Assembly (NCBI GenBank): GCA_014654705.1
Contig: JACVZY010000075.1
Span: 1 to 32,025 of the forward strand
DNA from: Ignavibacteria bacterium
GTDB lineage: Bacteria; Bacteroidota; Ignavibacteria; Kapaibacteriales; UBA4661
Length of the DNA stretch: 32,025 bases
Direction: 5' to 3'
The position numbers and the translations under genes were made by a program. Shown here one piece after another: positions 2,875 through 25,593 of the stretch. The number at the start of each line of letters is the position of its first letter. The stretch's first letter is position 1. A model generated the notes under the pieces. It was not told the origin of the DNA and did no database searches. It was given only the letters and a program-made list of their open reading frames with translations.

Positions 2875-3528
2875 ATGCGTTTTTTTTTACTCCTCAGTTT
2901 TTTGATTATCGCCTTTGCACCCAACATTCATGCTGCCTTGCCACCTGTGGGTACTGAGCAGGACGAGCTACTGCGCGTCGTAGAGTTTTTAAGCGGCTCT
3001 TTCTCCAGCAAAGAACAGTCTGAGAAAGACTCTGCATTTTTTGAAGTGCATTTGACCATGACACCAATTTGGCAAGAACGAACGGGCGAGCATTGGCTCT
3101 ACGTAGAACAAGCGATGGCAACCGCGCTCGACAAACCCTATCGGCAACGTATTTATCGCGTTGTATGGAAAGAGAATACCCCTGTAAGCCTCGTCTATAC
3201 GCTGCCCGATAACCCTCTCAAATACGCCGGTGCTTCTAAAAATTCCACCCTGCTTGCTGGTCTGAAGCCTGAAAACCTCACCGAGCGTGATGGCTGCGCC
3301 ATTGTCCTCAAAAAACTTCCCGACGGCTCGTATCAAGGCGCTACGCAAGGGACAGGCTGCAAAAGCGATCTTCGCGGTGCTTCCTACGCCACATCGGAGG
3401 TCTTTCTGACATCGAACAGCCTCACAAGCTGGGACAGAGGATTTAATGCTGAGGGCAAGCAGGTGTGGGGTGCTGTGAAAGGTGCTTACATTTTCAAAAA
3501 AAATGTGCTTTCGGCAGGCAAGAAATAA
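2875..3528 (+). CDS. Exported CpeT/CpcT family protein
   Basis: The 217-residue protein begins with a signal peptide (residues 1-20, ending IHA). The rest matches the CpeT/CpcT family (DUF1001): MTPIWQERTGEHWLYVEQAM, then PYRQRIYRV, DGCAIVL, GCKSDLRGASYATSEV and SWDRGFNAEGKQVWG. In cyanobacteria these proteins are lyases that attach bilins to phycobiliproteins. Outside that group the family is exported and its role is unknown, so a chromophore-lyase name would over-reach here. The gene follows the permease by 40 nt on the same strand and is probably co-transcribed. The start ATG at 2875 puts the hydrophobic segment right at the N-terminus. Confidence 0.85.
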   Translation: MRFFLLLSFLIIAFAPNIHAALPPVGTEQDELLRVVEFLSGSFSSKEQSEKDSAFFEVHLTMTPIWQERTGEHWLYVEQAMATALDKPYRQRIYRVVWKENTPVSLVYTLPDNPLKYAGASKNSTLLAGLKPENLTERDGCAIVLKKLPDGSYQGATQGTGCKSDLRGASYATSEVFLTSNSLTSWDRGFNAEGKQVWGAVKGAYIFKKNVLSAGKK

Positions 3529-7232: not shown

Positions 7233-9203
7233 TTACCGCACGAGCCATGATTTCGCGGCTTCTTCTTCTTCAAAAAACAGCACCTGAAGCAGTTCTTTGG
7301 CACGTTTTTCCTCAAATGCTGCTTCTGAACTGCTGCGCGTCAGTGAAGACGGGGGCGCGAGAAATGCCATTTTGACGATACCCGCTTTGGCATACCGCGG
7401 GACAATATTGGCATCATGCCATGCCTGAAGATCCGGCGTGAGGACGTGTCGGTTTTGAAGAACATTCACAAAAATTCCGCGCGTGTACATTTTCTCCGAA
7501 AGTTCTGCGAAAATGAGCAGCGCTTCTTTGAACTCTTCATTCGTCATCCGCTCAGTTTGTGGTGTCCAGTGAATTTCGAGAATTTTTTTCTCTACATCAT
7601 GAAAAACGCCGCAATACAGATTCTCAAATACGTGTGTCAACTTGCTTTTGAGTGCAAGACCTCGCTCCGATGAACCTAGAACGCCACTTCGTGATTCATT
7701 GTAGGACGCAAGTAATGACGAGGATTTAGTGTGCGATGAAATCTCCTCCGGCAATCCTCGCTGCGAGGAAGTAGTTCGCACGCGCGGCGATGAGGAAGAG
7801 CGCGTAGATGCAACGGCTGATGATGATTGAATAGTAAAATTGCTGACCAGACGCTGCAAGTGTGCGACGATATTACTGAGCTGCTCGGTATTGCGGGCAA
7901 TTTCGTTAATACCCGATGCTGTTTCTTCGACCGATGCGCTCATCTGCTCGACATTGCGCGTAATGAAACTCCCCGTTGAAGCCTGCTCTTCATTGGCTCG
8001 AACTACCTCTCGGACAAGTCCAGCTACATTTCCGGCGCTCATCACCATTTCCTCAAGCGCACTTCCGGTAGTCTTCGCAAGCTGCAACCCTGATTCTGCC
8101 TCACTTGTGCCACGCTCAATGCCTTTGACGGCACGTTCGGTTTCTCGTTGGATATGGCGAATAGTACCGCCTATTTGCTTCGTCGCTTGAGCAGTGCGCT
8201 CGGCAAGTTTACGCACTTCATCGGCAACGACGGCAAATCCGCGTCCCTGCTCACCGGCGCGGGCGGCTTCGATGGCAGCATTGAGCGCCAGAAGATTCGT
8301 TTGGTCGGCAATTTCCTCGATGACCATCACAATCTCACCCACTTCCGCGCTTGCATTGCCTAGCCCTCGCACGACGCTCGCCGCCTCGCTTACCACACGG
8401 GCGATTTCTTGCATTTTTGCGACCGTATTTCCTGTTACTTCAGCACCACTCTCGGCTGCTTTTCCGTTTGCTTCAGCCATACGCTCCACATTAGACGTTT
8501 TTTCTACACCGGAGGAAATACCTGAGACAATGTTTATCACCGATTCCGCCAGCGCTGTTGTTTGGCGGGCTTGTTCCTCAGCCGTCGTAGTAATCTGATG
8601 CGAAGCAGTCGTCACAAGCTGCGCAATTTCGCCCGTGCGCTGCACGGTTTCTTGCACCTGCGAGACAAGAAAGCGGATTTTGCTGACGGCAGCATTCACA
8701 TTTTCGGCAAGTGTGTTCATCATCTGATTCTGACTTTGCAGAACGATGTGCACCGTCAGATCACCTTCGGCAAAACGGTGTATGCTTGCTATTATCATTT
8801 CGGCATCGTGCTGTAAGGTTTTGCTTTCTTGTGCGAAATGCTCTTCAGCTTGCTTTGCGCGCTGCTGTTCGGCTTCCAAGAGCGTTTGTAGGTGATGAAG
8901 CGCTTGTGCATCCTCCTTGCGGCGCTCTTGCTCTTCTTGGAATTGCACTTGTAGTTGAGCGTACAATTTTTTATAGAGAAAGGCAGCAATACTTGTTAGA
9001 AAAGCTATCACGACACTCGCCCCGATAGCAAGCAATAGCGCTCCGCGAATACTACCCCATACGGAGTATATGGCTATCACTCCGATAACGGCAAGAAGGG
9101 TGAGCAAAGCAGCGACTCGCGGAAGAAGTTGCACCGCACCTACTTCAGAAGGTGTAGGGCTGAATGGTACTGGTGAGGCGGAATACGTCTGTACGATGGG
9201 CAT
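7233..9203 (-). CDS. Methyl-accepting chemotaxis protein with C-terminal SpoIIAA/STAS-like domain
   Basis: The 656-residue protein has two adjacent membrane segments (about 28-48 and 53-77) with almost no periplasmic loop, so it has no external ligand domain. A coiled coil (80-135) and a HAMP-like segment (135-185) lead to the signalling domain. Its hairpin tip, about 298-338, includes [20 protein letters not shown] and [16 protein letters not shown], the part that contacts CheA and CheW. A Ser-rich linker (459-520) then joins a domain at about 525-656 that looks like the SpoIIAA/STAS fold found in small Bacteroidota proteins ([15 protein letters not shown], then [20 protein letters not shown] and a final [10 protein letters not shown]). 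That part is inferred from pattern. Input is likely cytoplasmic or membrane-borne. No chemotaxis partner gene lies nearby. Confidence 0.88.
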
Positions 9204-9394: not shown

Positions 9395-9790
9395 TTAATC
9401 TACGGCTTCCATAAATTCGACTATAAAGGTTGCGCCCTTTCCATGTTCACTTTCACACCAGACCTGTCCGCCCATTGCTTCCACCAGACGCTTGACAATA
9501 GAAAGCCCAAGCCCAGTCGAGCTTTCTTGCCCTGTGGGTTTTGCCGAAAGCCGCGCAAATTTGGAGAAGAGTTTTAGTTTATCCTGCTCGGTCAGCCCAG
9601 GTCCTTCGTCCTGAATCTCAATACGCACTTTTGCTTCTCCACTTTCGCTCAGATGACGCACCATACGCACAACGACCTTTGACCATTTTGGCGAGAATTT
9701 TATGGCGTTCGAGATGAGATTATCAAATACCTGATGAAGGGCGAATTCATCGGCAAGTATGGCAGCATCTATTGATTCATGAGAAAGCAT
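9395..9790 (-). CDS. ATPase (HATPase_c) part of the interrupted histidine kinase
   Basis: These 131 codons hold a full GHKL ATPase domain: N box FDNLISNAIKFSP, G1 box DEGPGL and G2 box TGLGLSIVKRLV, ending in GATFIVEF. It is in the same frame as the upstream kinase piece, separated only by a TAG at 9850-9848 and 19 sense codons. Those codons read as a normal kinase linker (EVFDKKIENYQARAAEKAI). The ATG at 9790 has no good Shine-Dalgarno site, so independent translation would be weak. It is best seen as the C-terminal quarter of one gene, although a two-part kinase is possible. Confidence 0.75.
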   Translation of the reverse strand: MLSHESIDAAILADEFALHQVFDNLISNAIKFSPKWSKVVVRMVRHLSESGEAKVRIEIQDEGPGLTEQDKLKLFSKFARLSAKPTGQESSTGLGLSIVKRLVEAMGGQVWCESEHGKGATFIVEFMEAVD

Positions 9791-9847
9791 GATAGCTTTT
9801 TCTGCGGCTCGGGCTTGATAATTTTCAATTTTTTTATCAAATACTTC

Positions 9848-9850
9848 CTA
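9848..9850 (-). other. In-frame amber stop inside a kinase gene
   Basis: On the minus strand the frame reads ATT-CCC-TAG-GAA-GTA, and TAG is codon 500 counted from ATG 11347. The frame is open and kinase-like on both sides. A single base change from CAG, TTG, TGG, AAG or GAG would restore it. TAG is an ordinary stop for other genes here (thrC, the nuclease, the second MFP), so general recoding is unlikely. Confidence 0.85.
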
Positions 9851-11347
9851 GGGAATGCGGCGTATGTGGACTTCATAGCCGCCACTCTCTATTTTGTTGA
9901 CATCAAGAAGATTGGTCACAATATCAAGCATCTGGTCAACACTCACAATGATATTCTGAATAAATTTTGCCGCTCTTTCTTCTTGAATGTAATATCGAAG
10001 TAAAATCTCCGCACTGGAACGAATTCCGGCAAGAGGATTTTTCAAATCGTGGGCAGCTATACCCAAAAACTCATTCTTTTCTTGATTCAATTTTATCAAC
10101 GATTTAGTGCGATCCTCTACACGCCTCTCCAAACCTTCATTTACATCGAGCAGATATTTTTCAGCCTCTTTACGCTGAGTAATATCGACACATGACCCCA
10201 TATACCCAGCAAATTCACCATTCGGAAGATACCGCGGTGTACCAATTGACAGTAACCACCGATATTCTCCAGAGTGATGCAATATGCGATACTCTATACT
10301 CAATTGCTGCCGAGCTTCAAATGCTTCGGTATATACCTGCATACATTTCCCTATGTCATCCGGATGAATGATATCCGCCCAGCCGTATCCAGTATCCTGT
10401 TCTATTGTTCTGCCTGTGAAGTCAAGCCATGTTTTATTGAAATAGGTAATCAATTTTTCCGTATCAGACATCCAGACCAGTACCGGAGCAGTGTCGGCAA
10501 GCGTGCGAAAGCGAAGTTCACTTTCGGCTATGCGTATAGCTGCCTCTTTTTGATCGGTACAAATATGACGGACTGACATAAAACCGTAGAGGTCATTTTC
10601 CGTATTGACAAGAGGGAAAACTGTTGTGTCCACCCAATAATAACTTCCATCTTTGGCTTTATTCCGAATATCCCCACGCCATACTTTACGATTAGTAATC
10701 GTGTGCCAAAAATCTTCCCAAAATTCTTGTGTATGATAGCCCGAGTTAACTATACTCTCATTCCTGCCTATTATCTCTTTTTCGGTATATCCCGATACCT
10801 GACAAAAAAGCTCATTAGCAGAAATAATCGTTCCGTCCAGACTCGTCATGGTCGTGAGCGTACTGGTATTTATCGCTGTGATATAGTTTTTAAGTTCTTT
10901 GAATAACTGCTGATTGACTTTTTCCTGCCAGCGATATTCTTCTCTGCCCCGTGCTTCTCGAATTTCTCTGAGAATTGCGTGAGGAAGTTTGAGTAATCGG
11001 TCTTTGATGAGATAATCATGCGCCCCTGATTTGATGCAATGCACAGCATCTTCTTCACTAATCGAGCCGGAAACGACGATGAAGGGAATGTCTATACCTA
11101 ATTCCTGTACAATATGCAAGGCTTCAAAAACCGAAAATTGGGGGAGCGTATAATCACACAAAATCGCATCCCATTCAGACGTAGCCAGCGCTGCGCGAAA
11201 TCCTGCTTCCGTATCCACGCGGAGCGCTCGGGGTGTAAATTCGTTCTTCAAAGCATGAAGGCAAAGCTCGAAATCATCTTCGGAGTCTTCAACAAGTAAA
11301 ATGTTGAGAGAATACGTAGTTTTTGGTGTAGGTAAAGTAGCAATCAT
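9848..11347 (-). CDS. Receiver-PAS-PAS-HisKA hybrid sensor kinase, N-terminal part
   Basis: This piece encodes 499 residues before the amber codon. Residues about 15-130 form a response-regulator receiver domain with ILLVEDSEDD, phospho-acceptor D65 (CDYTLPQ) and K115 (YLIKDR). Two PAS domains follow (about 155-270 and 280-395, the latter with IIHPDD and a PAC end). A coiled region leads to HisKA with FLGIAAHDLKNPLAG, phospho-acceptor H433. Without the downstream ATPase it could be phosphorylated only by another kinase. I use ATG 11347; the longer frame begins at TTG 11383. There are no membrane segments, so the protein is cytoplasmic. The receiver probably takes phosphate from another kinase, perhaps the CHASE3 kinase upstream. 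Confidence 0.85.
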   Translation of the reverse strand: MIATLPTPKTTYSLNILLVEDSEDDFELCLHALKNEFTPRALRVDTEAGFRAALATSEWDAILCDYTLPQFSVFEALHIVQELGIDIPFIVVSGSISEEDAVHCIKSGAHDYLIKDRLLKLPHAILREIREARGREEYRWQEKVNQQLFKELKNYITAINTSTLTTMTSLDGTIISANELFCQVSGYTEKEIIGRNESIVNSGYHTQEFWEDFWHTITNRKVWRGDIRNKAKDGSYYWVDTTVFPLVNTENDLYGFMSVRHICTDQKEAAIRIAESELRFRTLADTAPVLVWMSDTEKLITYFNKTWLDFTGRTIEQDTGYGWADIIHPDDIGKCMQVYTEAFEARQQLSIEYRILHHSGEYRWLLSIGTPRYLPNGEFAGYMGSCVDITQRKEAEKYLLDVNEGLERRVEDRTKSLIKLNQEKNEFLGIAAHDLKNPLAGIRSSAEILLRYYIQEERAAKFIQNIIVSVDQMLDIVTNLLDVNKIESGGYEVHIRRIP

Positions 11348-11681
11348 AAACACAACAAGAAAAAAGAGACTGAAAAAGCACAAACTGTAACCGTAAGCAT
11401 TATAGAGGATTCCCGAAAGAGTATCTTCCTACTTGTAAAAAACACCTACGATGCTATGAATGGTCAAGGTATGGTCACGATAGCACGCGTTTCGATGCCG
11501 ATACGTAAGTCGCCTGCTTTTCAAGGAATCAAGCATGAGAGGTGAGTACGAGATCTTTTTTACAATTTTCCCACGAGCAAGGGTTGTGGCTCGACAACCT
11601 AAGAAGTCAATGAGCAGATAAATTAAATTATTGGTACTGTGTAAATTATGACAAATATAGAACCGCCCTAATATAACAAAT

Positions 11682-11744
11682 TGTGTCATACCGCGCTAGT
11701 GACACATGTAACGGAAAACCCGTTACAATCAATGTTGCAACATT
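11682..11744. promoter_or_regulatory. Cluster of three operator-like dyads
   Basis: TGTGTCA-N11-TGACACA spans 11682-11706, GTAACGG-N5-CCGTTAC spans 11708-11726, and the perfect 14-bp palindrome AATGTTGCAACATT spans 11731-11744. The three are nearly contiguous in 63 bp, about 335 nt upstream of the kinase start. Regulator binding is inference; no known operator consensus is claimed. Confidence 0.45.
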
Positions 11745-11892
11745 TAATTTTCAACCACAAAAAACCCACAAATCGAACATAGAAAATCACTTACAATCAC
11801 AAAATGCAAAGAGAAATCGAAAAATATATTTTTATTTTTTTCACTTTTTTTTCACTTTTTTGGCAATATTACCCACAAAGGAGAGACATTGT

Positions 11893-11958
11893 ATTCTTTG
11901 CAGATGCCTCAAGAGTAGATTCTGGCACTCTTTCTTACTTGAAGCATCCGCAGAGAAT
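11893..11958. repeat. Long imperfect hairpin (21-bp stem, 24-nt loop)
   Basis: The arm 11893-11913 pairs with 11938-11958. There are 18 Watson-Crick pairs, one G-U pair and two mismatches, and pairing continues weakly outside. It starts 34 nt beyond the response-regulator stop. No T run follows directly on the minus strand, so it is not a classic terminator. It may be a MITE-like remnant or an mRNA 3' end structure. Confidence 0.5.
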
Positions 11959-11992
11959 AAGTATCGTCAAAGACAATCACAGAGTATGGCAA

Positions 11993-12436
11993 TCACAGCG
12001 TATTATGACTGGGCTGATTGACAAGCAGCCAGTAGAAACCTACGGTCGAAACAATATCTGCAAAACTGTCGAACGTGACGGGTTTGACGATATAGCTATT
12101 TGCGCCAAGCGCATAAGCTTCTTGTATGTCCGGCTCTTCTTTGGAGGAGGTCAGCACCACGACCGGAATTTTTGATGTGCGCTTATCGGATTTAATTATT
12201 TTCAATACTTCCAGACCACTTAGCTTGGGCATTTTTAAGTCGAGCAGTACCAATTTGGGCTGCTCTACTCCGTTGCGCCCAGCGAATCGTCCTTCGCCAA
12301 ACAGAAATTCGAGGGCTTCTTCTCCGTCTTCTACGTGCGTCAATGCACTTGCGAGGTTCTTTTTGCGCAGTGCACTAATGGCTAATTCGGCATCGTCGAG
12401 ATTGTCTTCGACGAGCAGTATTTCTACGGGATTCAT
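11993..12436 (-). CDS. Single-domain response regulator (CheY/Rcp1-like)
   Basis: The 147-residue protein is a receiver domain alone. It has EDNLDD at 10-15 for metal binding, phospho-acceptor D66 in LVLLDLKMP, the switch residues VVVLTSS, and K118 in IVKPV. The insertion [18 protein letters not shown] before the phospho-site is typical of the Rcp1-type regulators that pair with phytochrome-like kinases. It has no DNA-binding domain, so it must signal by protein contact or act in a phosphorelay. It lies 157 nt downstream of the CHASE3 kinase on the same strand, which makes that kinase the likely partner. Confidence 0.9.
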
Positions 12437-12507
12437 GGTGATTCTTTCCTACTATGAGGTTGAAAAATGAGAGGTTAACAATGAGCTAAGTTCTTGACCA
12501 AAAGTAA

Positions 12508-12593: not shown

Positions 12594-14825
12594 TTAGGGG
12601 GTATTCTGTGCACTAAGGTTCAAGAGCGAGAACGAGAACGTCGCACCTTTATTCACATCAGCTTCTGCCCAGACTTGCCCACCGTGCTTTGTAATAATGC
12701 GTTTCACAATAGCCAGACCGATGCCTGTGCCTTCAAAATCACGCTCTTTATGCAGCCGTTGAAAAACGCTAAAGAGTTTGTCGGCATAGCGCATATCGAA
12801 GCCTACGCCGTGGTCGCGGACGGCATAGACAGGAACTCCGTTCTGCACGGAGGAAGTAATAGAAATAGTTTTTGACGCGGAATGACGTGAATACTTTACG
12901 GCATTGGAAAGCAGATTTACCCACACCTGCCAGAGAAGAGAGGCATCGCCGACAGCATTGGGAAGCGCGGAAATTTCTATCGAATAGTCGGCTAATTCAT
13001 TGTGCGTATTAAGGTCTTCCAGTACAGAGCGAACAAGTTCCATCATATTCACATCAGATATTTGCAAGGCTTTTCGCCCTAAACGCGAGAGTGCGAGAAG
13101 CTCATCTATCAATATACCCATTTTTTGCGCACCATTCATAATTCTTCCTAAAATGCGCAGCCCTTCTTCATCGAATTGGTTCTCATATCGCTCACGCAGC
13201 ATTTCAGCAAACCCATTGACGCTGCGGAGTGGCGCGCGGAGGTCGTGCGAAACAGAGTAGGAAAATGCCTCTAATTCCTTATTTGTTTCTTGGTATTGTT
13301 GATTGATAAAAACCAATTCTTGATTGGCAAGAAGAAGTTGGGCAGTGCGCTCTTCTATGAGGCGCTCTAAATCAGCATTTGCCGATGCCAGCGCAGCATT
13401 GAGTTCGATGACCTTTGCCTCGGCAGCTTTACGGTCGCTAATGTCGTAGTAAAGAATCACCAAACCATCATTGAGCTTAGAGCAAACATTCGTGAACCAA
13501 TTATTAAAGCCATCACCAACATACTCAACGTCAATAATTGCACTATTGCCAGTTTCCAGCACTTCACAATATCGTGAAAATTGTCCGGTTTGAAGAACTC
13601 CCGGAAATAACTGTGCCATCGTGGATGACTGTACTTCATCTATGGAGCGCCCAAATCCTTTCCGTGCTGCTTCATTCAGTAGAACATACCGAAAGTCCAC
13701 TATTTTTTGTGTGTCATCACGCACAGCTTCCACAACCAAAATACCGTAGAGCGCTGTATCAAGGACGCTTTTGAGAACTGTTTCCGACTTCGCTCGCCCT
13801 TGTTCAGCATGAACTCTATCGGTAATATCGTATAAGAACGAAAGAATGAACTTTATTGCTCCATTTTCATCCCTGCGAAAAACGATGGCACGATCAGTAA
13901 AATAGCACCAAGAGCCATTTTTGTGAAGTAATCTGTATTCACTTTCGTATGTGGTATGGTCTTCGCCATTTTGTATGATTTCCCCAAAACGATTCCGAAG
14001 ATACTCAGCATCGTCCGGGTGAATCAGAGACCAAAGCAAATCCGCTCCCCGCTCTTGAAGCTCAAGAGCAGAATAGCCGGTGAGACGCTCAAAGTAACTA
14101 TTGGTATATTCAAATGTTCCTTTTTGCACGTCGAAAAGATAGACAAAGCTGGGAACCGTTTCCAGAATAGTACTGGTAAACTTTTGTTGTGACAGAAGTT
14201 CCTGTTCACTTCGAATACGATACCGAAGGAACATGACCATCGTTACGGTAAAGCCAACAAGAAGGAGCACAACCGCAAATAAACTCGTAAAGACAGCGGT
14301 AGAATTATTACGAATGTGCTGCGTAATAGCATCGGAGGTAATGGCTTCCTCTTGATACTCAATTCGACTGCACAAAGCCCTAAGACTATCCATCACATAC
14401 ACCCCCTTCTTGCTTGCAATCGCCAACTGTGCTTCGGTAAATCCTCGCTCCCGCCGAATATTCACAACCTCGGTAATTAATACCAGCCTTCTTTTGACTA
14501 GATTTTCGAGTGTAGTATATTCATTCATTTGGTCGGGTAATTGCTGATGCAGCTTGTGAAGTAACGAATCAATGCGGAACGATGCCGCTTTATAGGGTTC
14601 CAAATACGCCTCATCTCCAGTCAGAACAAACCCTCGCAGACTGCTCTCGGCATCTTTCACAACCGAGAAGACTTTCTCTAAAACTGCCATCGTATGGCGT
14701 TTATTCGCTATTTGCCATACATTACTCTCAAGCCGCTCAATAGACCAAAAGAGATATACACCAAGCACGACCACCATCATTCCTGTGAGAACAAGCCCAG
14801 CAATTATTGCGCGATAGTAATGCAT
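12594..14825 (-). CDS. CHASE3-PAS-PAS sensor histidine kinase
   Basis: The 743-residue membrane kinase has helix 1 at about 5-28 and a periplasmic CHASE3-type domain at 30-172 (KDAESSLRGFVLTGDEAYLE is diagnostic). Helix 2 lies at about 178-200, with PAS/PAC domains at 215-337 and 346-466. A coiled coil leads to HisKA with FSYSVSHDLRAPLRS (phospho-acceptor H527) and then a HATPase domain with NLLSNAVKYS, DHGVGFD and GTGIGLAIVK. The kinase core is of the phytochrome-like class that signals to Rcp1-type regulators. Such a gene lies next downstream, after a gap with a 15-bp duplication. The stimulus is not predictable. moaA ends 96 nt upstream on the same strand. Confidence 0.9.
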   Translation of the reverse strand: MHYYRAIIAGLVLTGMMVVVLGVYLFWSIERLESNVWQIANKRHTMAVLEKVFSVVKDAESSLRGFVLTGDEAYLEPYKAASFRIDSLLHKLHQQLPDQMNEYTTLENLVKRRLVLITEVVNIRRERGFTEAQLAIASKKGVYVMDSLRALCSRIEYQEEAITSDAITQHIRNNSTAVFTSLFAVVLLLVGFTVTMVMFLRYRIRSEQELLSQQKFTSTILETVPSFVYLFDVQKGTFEYTNSYFERLTGYSALELQERGADLLWSLIHPDDAEYLRNRFGEIIQNGEDHTTYESEYRLLHKNGSWCYFTDRAIVFRRDENGAIKFILSFLYDITDRVHAEQGRAKSETVLKSVLDTALYGILVVEAVRDDTQKIVDFRYVLLNEAARKGFGRSIDEVQSSTMAQLFPGVLQTGQFSRYCEVLETGNSAIIDVEYVGDGFNNWFTNVCSKLNDGLVILYYDISDRKAAEAKVIELNAALASANADLERLIEERTAQLLLANQELVFINQQYQETNKELEAFSYSVSHDLRAPLRSVNGFAEMLRERYENQFDEEGLRILGRIMNGAQKMGILIDELLALSRLGRKALQISDVNMMELVRSVLEDLNTHNELADYSIEISALPNAVGDASLLWQVWVNLLSNAVKYSRHSASKTISITSSVQNGVPVYAVRDHGVGFDMRYADKLFSVFQRLHKERDFEGTGIGLAIVKRIITKHGGQVWAEADVNKGATFSFSLLNLSAQNTP

Positions 14826-17218: not shown

Positions 17219-17269
17219 GACGAGATTTTTTTCTTGCTTGAAACCGTTCCGCTTCTGTATGTTTGTAAC

Positions 17270-17710
17270 ATGATTCGCCCATTCAACATACCATCAGCGA
17301 ACATCACGCTTTATCCCGATACCCAACACACGTGTCGGCGGGTAAGCGCATTACTCCTTGTCATTGTCCTTTCGCTCTTTGCCCGTACTGTTGCCTACAA
17401 CTACGATTTCTCCCAAAGCCTTAAAGACAATGCCCGTAACTACAACCCTTTCCACAAACCCGTCAAAAGCCAGCCCATCAAGGCAAAAACGCCACGCGCA
17501 ATGTCGAGTATCACTTTGCCGATGGCACAAAGCCAATCCGATATTCGCTCTACTACCCCACTCGTAAAAACGTTTCCCACACTGACGGGCGCGTTTATTT
17601 CTCTCTTCCCGCAAGCACCCTCCTTTGTCCGCGAAAAATCCACATTTTTTATCCTCTCCCTCGCTGCCCCGCCCAATCTCTGCGTTCTCAACTCCACCTT
17701 TCGTATTTAG
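17270..17710 (+). CDS. Hypothetical exported protein, possibly frameshifted
   Basis: The frame from ATG 17270 gives 146 residues with a signal-like segment (RRVSALLLVIVLSLFARTVA, about residues 23-42) followed by YNYDFSQSLKDNARNYNPF. Up to about codon 72 it looks protein-like. After the A-run near 17485 the frame turns Ser/Thr/Pro-rich and less plausible, while the frame at 17440-17853 becomes protein-like. The gene may be real but broken, or not a gene. I recognise no family. It sits between moeB and the first efflux operon. Confidence 0.35.
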   Translation: MIRPFNIPSANITLYPDTQHTCRRVSALLLVIVLSLFARTVAYNYDFSQSLKDNARNYNPFHKPVKSQPIKAKTPRAMSSITLPMAQSQSDIRSTTPLVKTFPTLTGAFISLFPQAPSFVREKSTFFILSLAAPPNLCVLNSTFRI

Positions 17711-25181: not shown

Positions 25182-25212
25182 TTGCCCAGAACTAAGAAAA
25201 ACGCTAAGTTTG
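25182..25212 (+). promoter_or_regulatory. Bacteroidota-type promoter ahead of efflux system 2
   Basis: TTG (25182-25184) and TAAGTTTG (25205-25212) are separated by 20 nt, matching the TTG / TAnnTTTG pattern of Bacteroidota sigma-ABfr. The start of transcription would fall at or just before ATG 25219, so the transcript may be nearly leaderless. Confidence 0.45.
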
Positions 25213-25218
25213 CGGTCT

Positions 25219-25593
25219 ATGAATCTCTTCCGCCACCATATCCTTCATCGGCTTTTGAGCATCTTTATGATGCTCCATATCCTCAATCTCAGTGTGGATA
25301 CCAGCAACACGTCTTTTATGGTGGAGAATGGTGATGCAGCCTTCAATGAAATTCATAGCCTTATTGAGTTTGTACTAGAAGATGTTCTCCACATTCCTGA
25401 TGCCGTGCCAGAATACCATAATCACCACGAAGCAGCCGAATTGATGGAAACATCCGACGACTGTATTGCTATTCAGATGGGCATTTCCTTATCTCGGCAA
25501 GACCATCTCTTTTCTCGTCTTACGTTTGCTCCTTCGCCTTGCCTTTTCGTCCAACCTACATTGGACATTGCGTCTCCCCCGCCAAAAGCCTAA
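25219..25593 (+). CDS. Small exported protein at the head of efflux system 2
   Basis: The 124-residue product starts at ATG 25219; a TTG nine bases upstream is the only longer option. Residues about 7-27 form a hydrophobic, signal-like helix, followed by NTSFMVENGDAAFNEIHSLI and then EFVLEDVLHIPDAVPEYHNH. An acidic and His-rich stretch (residues about 70-85, with HNHHEAAELME) could bind metal; this is inference. Small proteins of this style sit ahead of metal-efflux RND genes in some Bacteroidota, from memory and unverified. The C-terminus is proline-rich (PPPKA). It lies 253 nt upstream of the adaptor gene, in the same direction. Confidence 0.6.
   Translation: MNLFRHHILHRLLSIFMMLHILNLSVDTSNTSFMVENGDAAFNEIHSLIEFVLEDVLHIPDAVPEYHNHHEAAELMETSDDCIAIQMGISLSRQDHLFSRLTFAPSPCLFVQPTLDIASPPPKA

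Follow-up and report, generated by a model that had tools for sequence, protein, structure and literature searches.

A hybrid histidine kinase gene of an Ignavibacteria bacterium carries a single in-frame amber codon between its HisKA and HATPase_c domains

It is known that EnvZ retains activity when its HisKA and HATPase domains are placed on separate polypeptides, and the same source gives, for the SMART database, 1556 of 42417 HisKA proteins that lack HATPase, 711 of which have an HE/DxxN/T motif (PMC3591291). In NtrB and EnvZ the DHp domain is sufficient by itself for phosphatase activity, which the CA domain raises greatly (PMC3510030). The locus described here lies on the reverse strand of contig JACVZY010000075.1 (assembly GCA_014654705.1, Ignavibacteria bacterium), the first 32,025 nucleotides of which were analysed and are referred to as the window. 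A preliminary description had reported a single in-frame amber codon ahead of the ATPase domain of a hybrid kinase, and translation and Pfam show that both the coordinates and the description were right. The features are as follows.

9395 to 11347, reverse strand: hybrid histidine kinase gene; read-through frame of 650 residues (the stop at codon 500 counted) plus the final stop (translation, Pfam)
11000 to 11302, reverse strand: receiver domain (Response_reg), residues 16-116, with Asp65 (Pfam and pattern match)
10553 to 10849, reverse strand: first PAS domain (PAS_9), residues 167-265 (Pfam)
10196 to 10447, reverse strand: second PAS domain (PAS_3), residues 301-384 (Pfam)
9881 to 10078, reverse strand: HisKA (DHp) domain, residues 424-489, with the H-box FLGIAAHDLKNPL, His433 and the HDxxN motif (Pfam and pattern match)
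9848 to 9850, reverse strand: in-frame TAG, codon 500, in the HisKA-HATPase linker (translation)
9413 to 9751, reverse strand: HATPase_c (CA) domain, residues 533-645, past the TAG (Pfam and pattern match)
9395 to 9790, reverse strand: 131-residue ORF from ATG 9790, holding the whole HATPase_c match, with a poor start context (ORF list, Pfam, start score)

The reverse-strand translation starts at ATG 11347 and finishes at TAA 9397-9395, giving 651 codons over 1953 bases in which the TAG is the only internal stop, with no frameshift and no motif missing. In the mechanical ORF list the gene appears as two ORFs, 9848-11383 (with TTG as the first listed start) and 9395-9790. Pfam, applied to the read-through frame, returned the order REC-PAS-PAS-HisKA-HATPase, and the H, N, G1, F and G2 box patterns were all matched in it. 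Asp65 of the receiver stands in what we take to be the usual phospho-acceptor place, and the HDxxN motif reads HDLKN. On the read-through frame the gene thus has the phospho-acceptor His, the HATPase_c boxes and the receiver that characterize a HisKA-type hybrid kinase. Without read-through, the first product has no HATPase part, and it retains, as had been proposed, the receiver and HisKA (residues 16-116 and 424-489).

The earlier statement that the frame is continuous and that both flanks are intact kinase sequence was confirmed by the domain boxes and by the coding signal, which runs across the TAG. An in-frame dicodon score, trained on the long ORFs of 30 stretches of 20 kb plus the window (a set that included the part before the TAG and excluded the part after it), was +0.28 before the TAG, +0.34 for the whole part after it and +0.47 for the 19 codons from the TAG to ATG 9790, while the other two frames of the same strand scored -0.69 and -0.93 after the TAG. 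A dicodon scan of the same sample, which replaced a codon-usage scan for cut genes that had missed the kinase at its thresholds, disclosed 27 adjacent same-frame coding pairs, and only the kinase pair has both flanks at or above 0.5. The HisKA of the kinase ranks 19th best of 149 genome matches and its HATPase_c 74th of 152, ranks that give no sign of decay in either half. Coding signal and normal domain scores therefore point to a kinase that was whole until recently, or is still whole.

Among the matches listed for its own genome and 40 relatives (mostly 30 candidates scored in each), no close orthologue was found; the longest matches extended from about residue 163 to 646 with 36-43% identity, and the catalytic core alone reached up to 57%. 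For the part before HisKA, nothing above 45% besides the kinase itself appeared in 8 genomes of the genus (its own included). A scan of a wider collection of genome contigs gave best segments of at most 47% identity and no close orthologue, one of the nearest named matches being an Ignavibacteria draft genome. The kinases most like it in its own genome had 50-61% identity in the catalytic core. This genome, of 5.7 Mb and with 149 HisKA matches, many of them on contig C104, displays a very large two-component expansion.

To describe the codon-500 column we aligned 41 relatives, namely 20 high-scoring paralogues from the own genome, 14 sequences from the set of 40 relatives and 7 from the wider contig scan; one of them (L028) had matched by its N-terminal part only. 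The column contained L in 12, V in 8, I in 7, M in 3, and F, T and P in 2 each, with H, S, C and A once each and one gap, so that 30 of the 41 paralogues or distant relatives have L, V, I or M. As judged from this alignment, uncut kinases are mostly hydrophobic at codon 500, and the alignment continues through the linker. The combination of uncut homologues, in this case paralogues and distant relatives, with a single disabling lesion is one of the marks of a recent nonsense pseudogene.

A HisKA-HATPase query yielded at least 160 matches in the own genome (150 of 179 candidates scored). Among those listed, a stop occurred in the kinase and in one other (C111), the latter being a TGA at the natural C-terminal end, and no other match was cut internally. 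In the same-genus genome G007 the query gave at least 159 matches, and the one TGA stop among those listed was again a natural end; in the search of the own genome and the 40 relatives (mostly 30 candidates scored in each) no stop was present in any other listed match. A kinase-wide pattern of stop interruptions is rejected on the matches listed in these genomes. We also re-aligned 14 chemotaxis receptor matches of the genus with apparent internal stops: 6 then had none and 8 kept theirs, 7 of these in the tail beyond the conserved domain, where they were taken as natural ends. The remaining one, L204 (G007, C36:30000-33500), has an internal TGA at about position 1646 with homology on both sides. 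This TGA lies within the conserved signalling domain, and L204 is a second signalling gene with a single nonsense codon in the genus.

We believe that the sensor kinase has probably gained its single nonsense codon recently, by an ordinary mutation in one lineage-specific gene out of a very large family of paralogues. This explanation is favoured because there is one lesion, a continuous coding signal, typical domain scores, an RF1 gene and an ordinary use of TAG, and also because the kinase holds the only internal cut among the own-genome kinases listed; the comparable TGA of L204 was counted in its favour. With regard to age, 263 of the 5841 possible single substitutions in the gene create a stop. 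Assuming that indels amount to 10% of substitutions and that selection ended when the stop arose, the neutral chance that a second lesion is still lacking is 0.59 at 0.2% divergence, 0.27 at 0.5%, 0.07 at 1% and 0.005 at 2%. Since there is no second lesion, this estimate implies that the stop is very young, or present at strain level, or an error. The suggestion in the preliminary description that the change is very recent agrees with these figures and is supported by a lesion count of one nonsense codon, with every motif kept and no frameshift over 1953 bases; the absence of decay would also fit an error or a split that still functions.

The first of these, in which the kinase of the organism is whole and the TAG reflects faulty base calling or assembly, or else a minority strain carried into a metagenome consensus, is unlikely, though it is the main rival. 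The assembly is a draft in 118 contigs with 99.19% completeness. A search for its 16S rRNA gene gave nothing, a weak negative because it also fails in 5 of 14 control genomes, and the Ile-GAU and Ala-UGC tRNAs are absent among 41 tRNA matches. Loss of rRNA operons together with these two tRNAs is usual in metagenome assemblies, and the missing 16S gene and tRNAs suggest that this genome is a metagenome-assembled draft. The remainder of the kinase gene is flawless, which also favours an error or variant. On the other hand, no other internal stop occurs among the kinase matches listed for the own genome, and an isolated single-substitution error in a consensus is uncommon.

Under a recent nonsense mutation, translation would end at residue 499. 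The product would keep the receiver, the two PAS domains and the HisKA helix pair and would have no ATP-binding domain, so that it would be unable to autophosphorylate. Any remaining activity might be that of a phosphatase of its own response regulator, which the truncated product could be because HDLKN is present, or that of a phospho-acceptor for the ATPase domain of another kinase. The immediate surroundings of the gene are listed below.

12594 to 14825, reverse strand: CHASE3-PAS-HisKA-HATPase kinase, frame intact, upstream (ORF list, Pfam)
11993 to 12436, reverse strand: stand-alone receiver protein, upstream (profile match)
7233 to 9203, reverse strand: methyl-accepting chemotaxis protein, frame intact, downstream (ORF list, Pfam)

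It had been proposed that the split product could act as a phosphorelay protein phosphorylated by the neighbouring CHASE3 kinase. A role of the first part in phosphotransfer is biochemically possible (Asp65, His433, HDxxN), whereas the link to the CHASE3 kinase was drawn from adjacency alone. Elsewhere in the window, the larger scanned ORFs match their main families across most of the profile length, and no profile match was obtained for 17234-17707, 25210-25590 and three small ORFs at 11683-12467. Since no second cut gene was seen among the scanned window ORFs, the region does not look decayed. The window also encodes, at 2875-3528, a protein of the CpeT/CpcT family, which is known from phycobiliprotein assembly.

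As the genome has about 150 kinases, and the nearest of them share 50-61% of the catalytic core residues with this one, its loss would probably be buffered, and the gene would be an incipient pseudogene, possibly in the sequenced strain only. Loss of one kinase among about 150 is the most likely reading, not a special reading of the code. As it stands the matter is of little consequence, a single gene out of a family of about 150 being cut by a nonsense codon.

It is very unlikely that the gene is a functional split, in which a 499-residue REC-PAS-PAS-HisKA protein is phosphorylated in trans by a re-initiated 131-residue HATPase protein. The arrangement has precedents in the EnvZ experiments and the SMART count cited above, and the 131-residue ORF contains the entire HATPase_c match and the kinase has the HDxxN motif. 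However, scored against 302 first-ATG starts and 2916 internal ATGs, the region upstream of ATG 9790 falls at the 2nd and 37th percentiles, and that of the kinase ATG 11347 at the 35th and 97th, respectively. A Shine-Dalgarno-like motif precedes 15% of first-ATG starts and 7% of internal ATGs and is of little use for judging starts. Re-initiation at ATG 9790, put forward previously as one way in which the stop could be tolerated, found no positive support in these scores, the upstream region resembling that of an internal methionine. As first-ATG starts are a proxy with a few wrongly assigned starts among them, and re-initiation can do without a strong signal, the score counts against a settled split only. 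The 19 codons ahead of ATG 9790 keep full coding signal, which argues for their translation up to recent times, and whole kinases can be aligned with the linker. Moreover, HATPase frames of fewer than 200 residues were two among the matches listed (of 152): that of the kinase (150) and one (187) that begins at a contig end. More improbable still, and the least credible of the readings considered, is that the nonsense codon created a working, switch-like split sensor caught at its origin, made of a 499-residue phosphatase HisKA protein and a small free ATPase subunit. The locus would gain importance only if strains keep the TAG and both halves are made, since it would then reveal how split HisKA/HATPase kinases originate.

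Programmed or constitutive amber readthrough yielding some full-length kinase is likewise very unlikely, marginally more so than a functional split. The flanks of the TAG are intact and coding, as readthrough would have them, but RF1 is present (504.8 bits against a cut-off of 423.25) and TAG is an ordinary stop: of the 304 long coding segments sampled from about 10% of the genome, 48 end in it (TAA 187, TGA 69). Neither is TAG over-represented in the 27 adjacent same-frame pairs (TAG 3, TGA 6, TAA 18), and the RNA from the TAG onward folds unremarkably (z = -0.67, a stability matched or exceeded by 51 of 200 shuffles). No CUA anticodon, and no UUA or UCA either, occurred among the 41 tRNA matches, all 41 typed by ARAGORN (150 of 195 candidates scored); a suppressor tRNA of very divergent sequence is still conceivable. 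The earlier idea that the stop is tolerated by readthrough thus drew no support from release factor, stop usage, anticodons or RNA fold. A search of viral contigs for the DNA pattern around the kinase TAG found nothing. The lowest-scoring of the 41 matches, a tRNA-like gene at C106:104355-104427 (L140 100-173, reverse strand; also in L120), has an apparent 8-base anticodon loop, for which ARAGORN gave the anticodon tacg (Val or Arg), and lies near a Met tRNA at C106:104801-104873. An altered genetic code or amber recoding is rejected, given RF1, the ordinary use of TAG as a stop and no cognate tRNA among the 41.

Incipient pseudogenes with a single nonsense codon form a general kind, and the kinase shares with them one in-frame stop, intact motifs and flanks and a large paralogous family, being known here from one genome, alongside paralogues and distant relatives. 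With the in vitro split of the EnvZ type (PMC3591291) it has in common the break between HisKA and HATPase and the HDxxN motif, but its second half is without a convincing start and there is no sign of a settled arrangement. The CheA3/CheA4 pair of Rhodobacter sphaeroides and Hik36/Hik43 of Synechocystis likewise carry kinase functions on two polypeptides; in contrast to the gene described here, these are CheA homologues encoded by separate, settled genes and backed by experiment (PMC3591291, PMC7656254).
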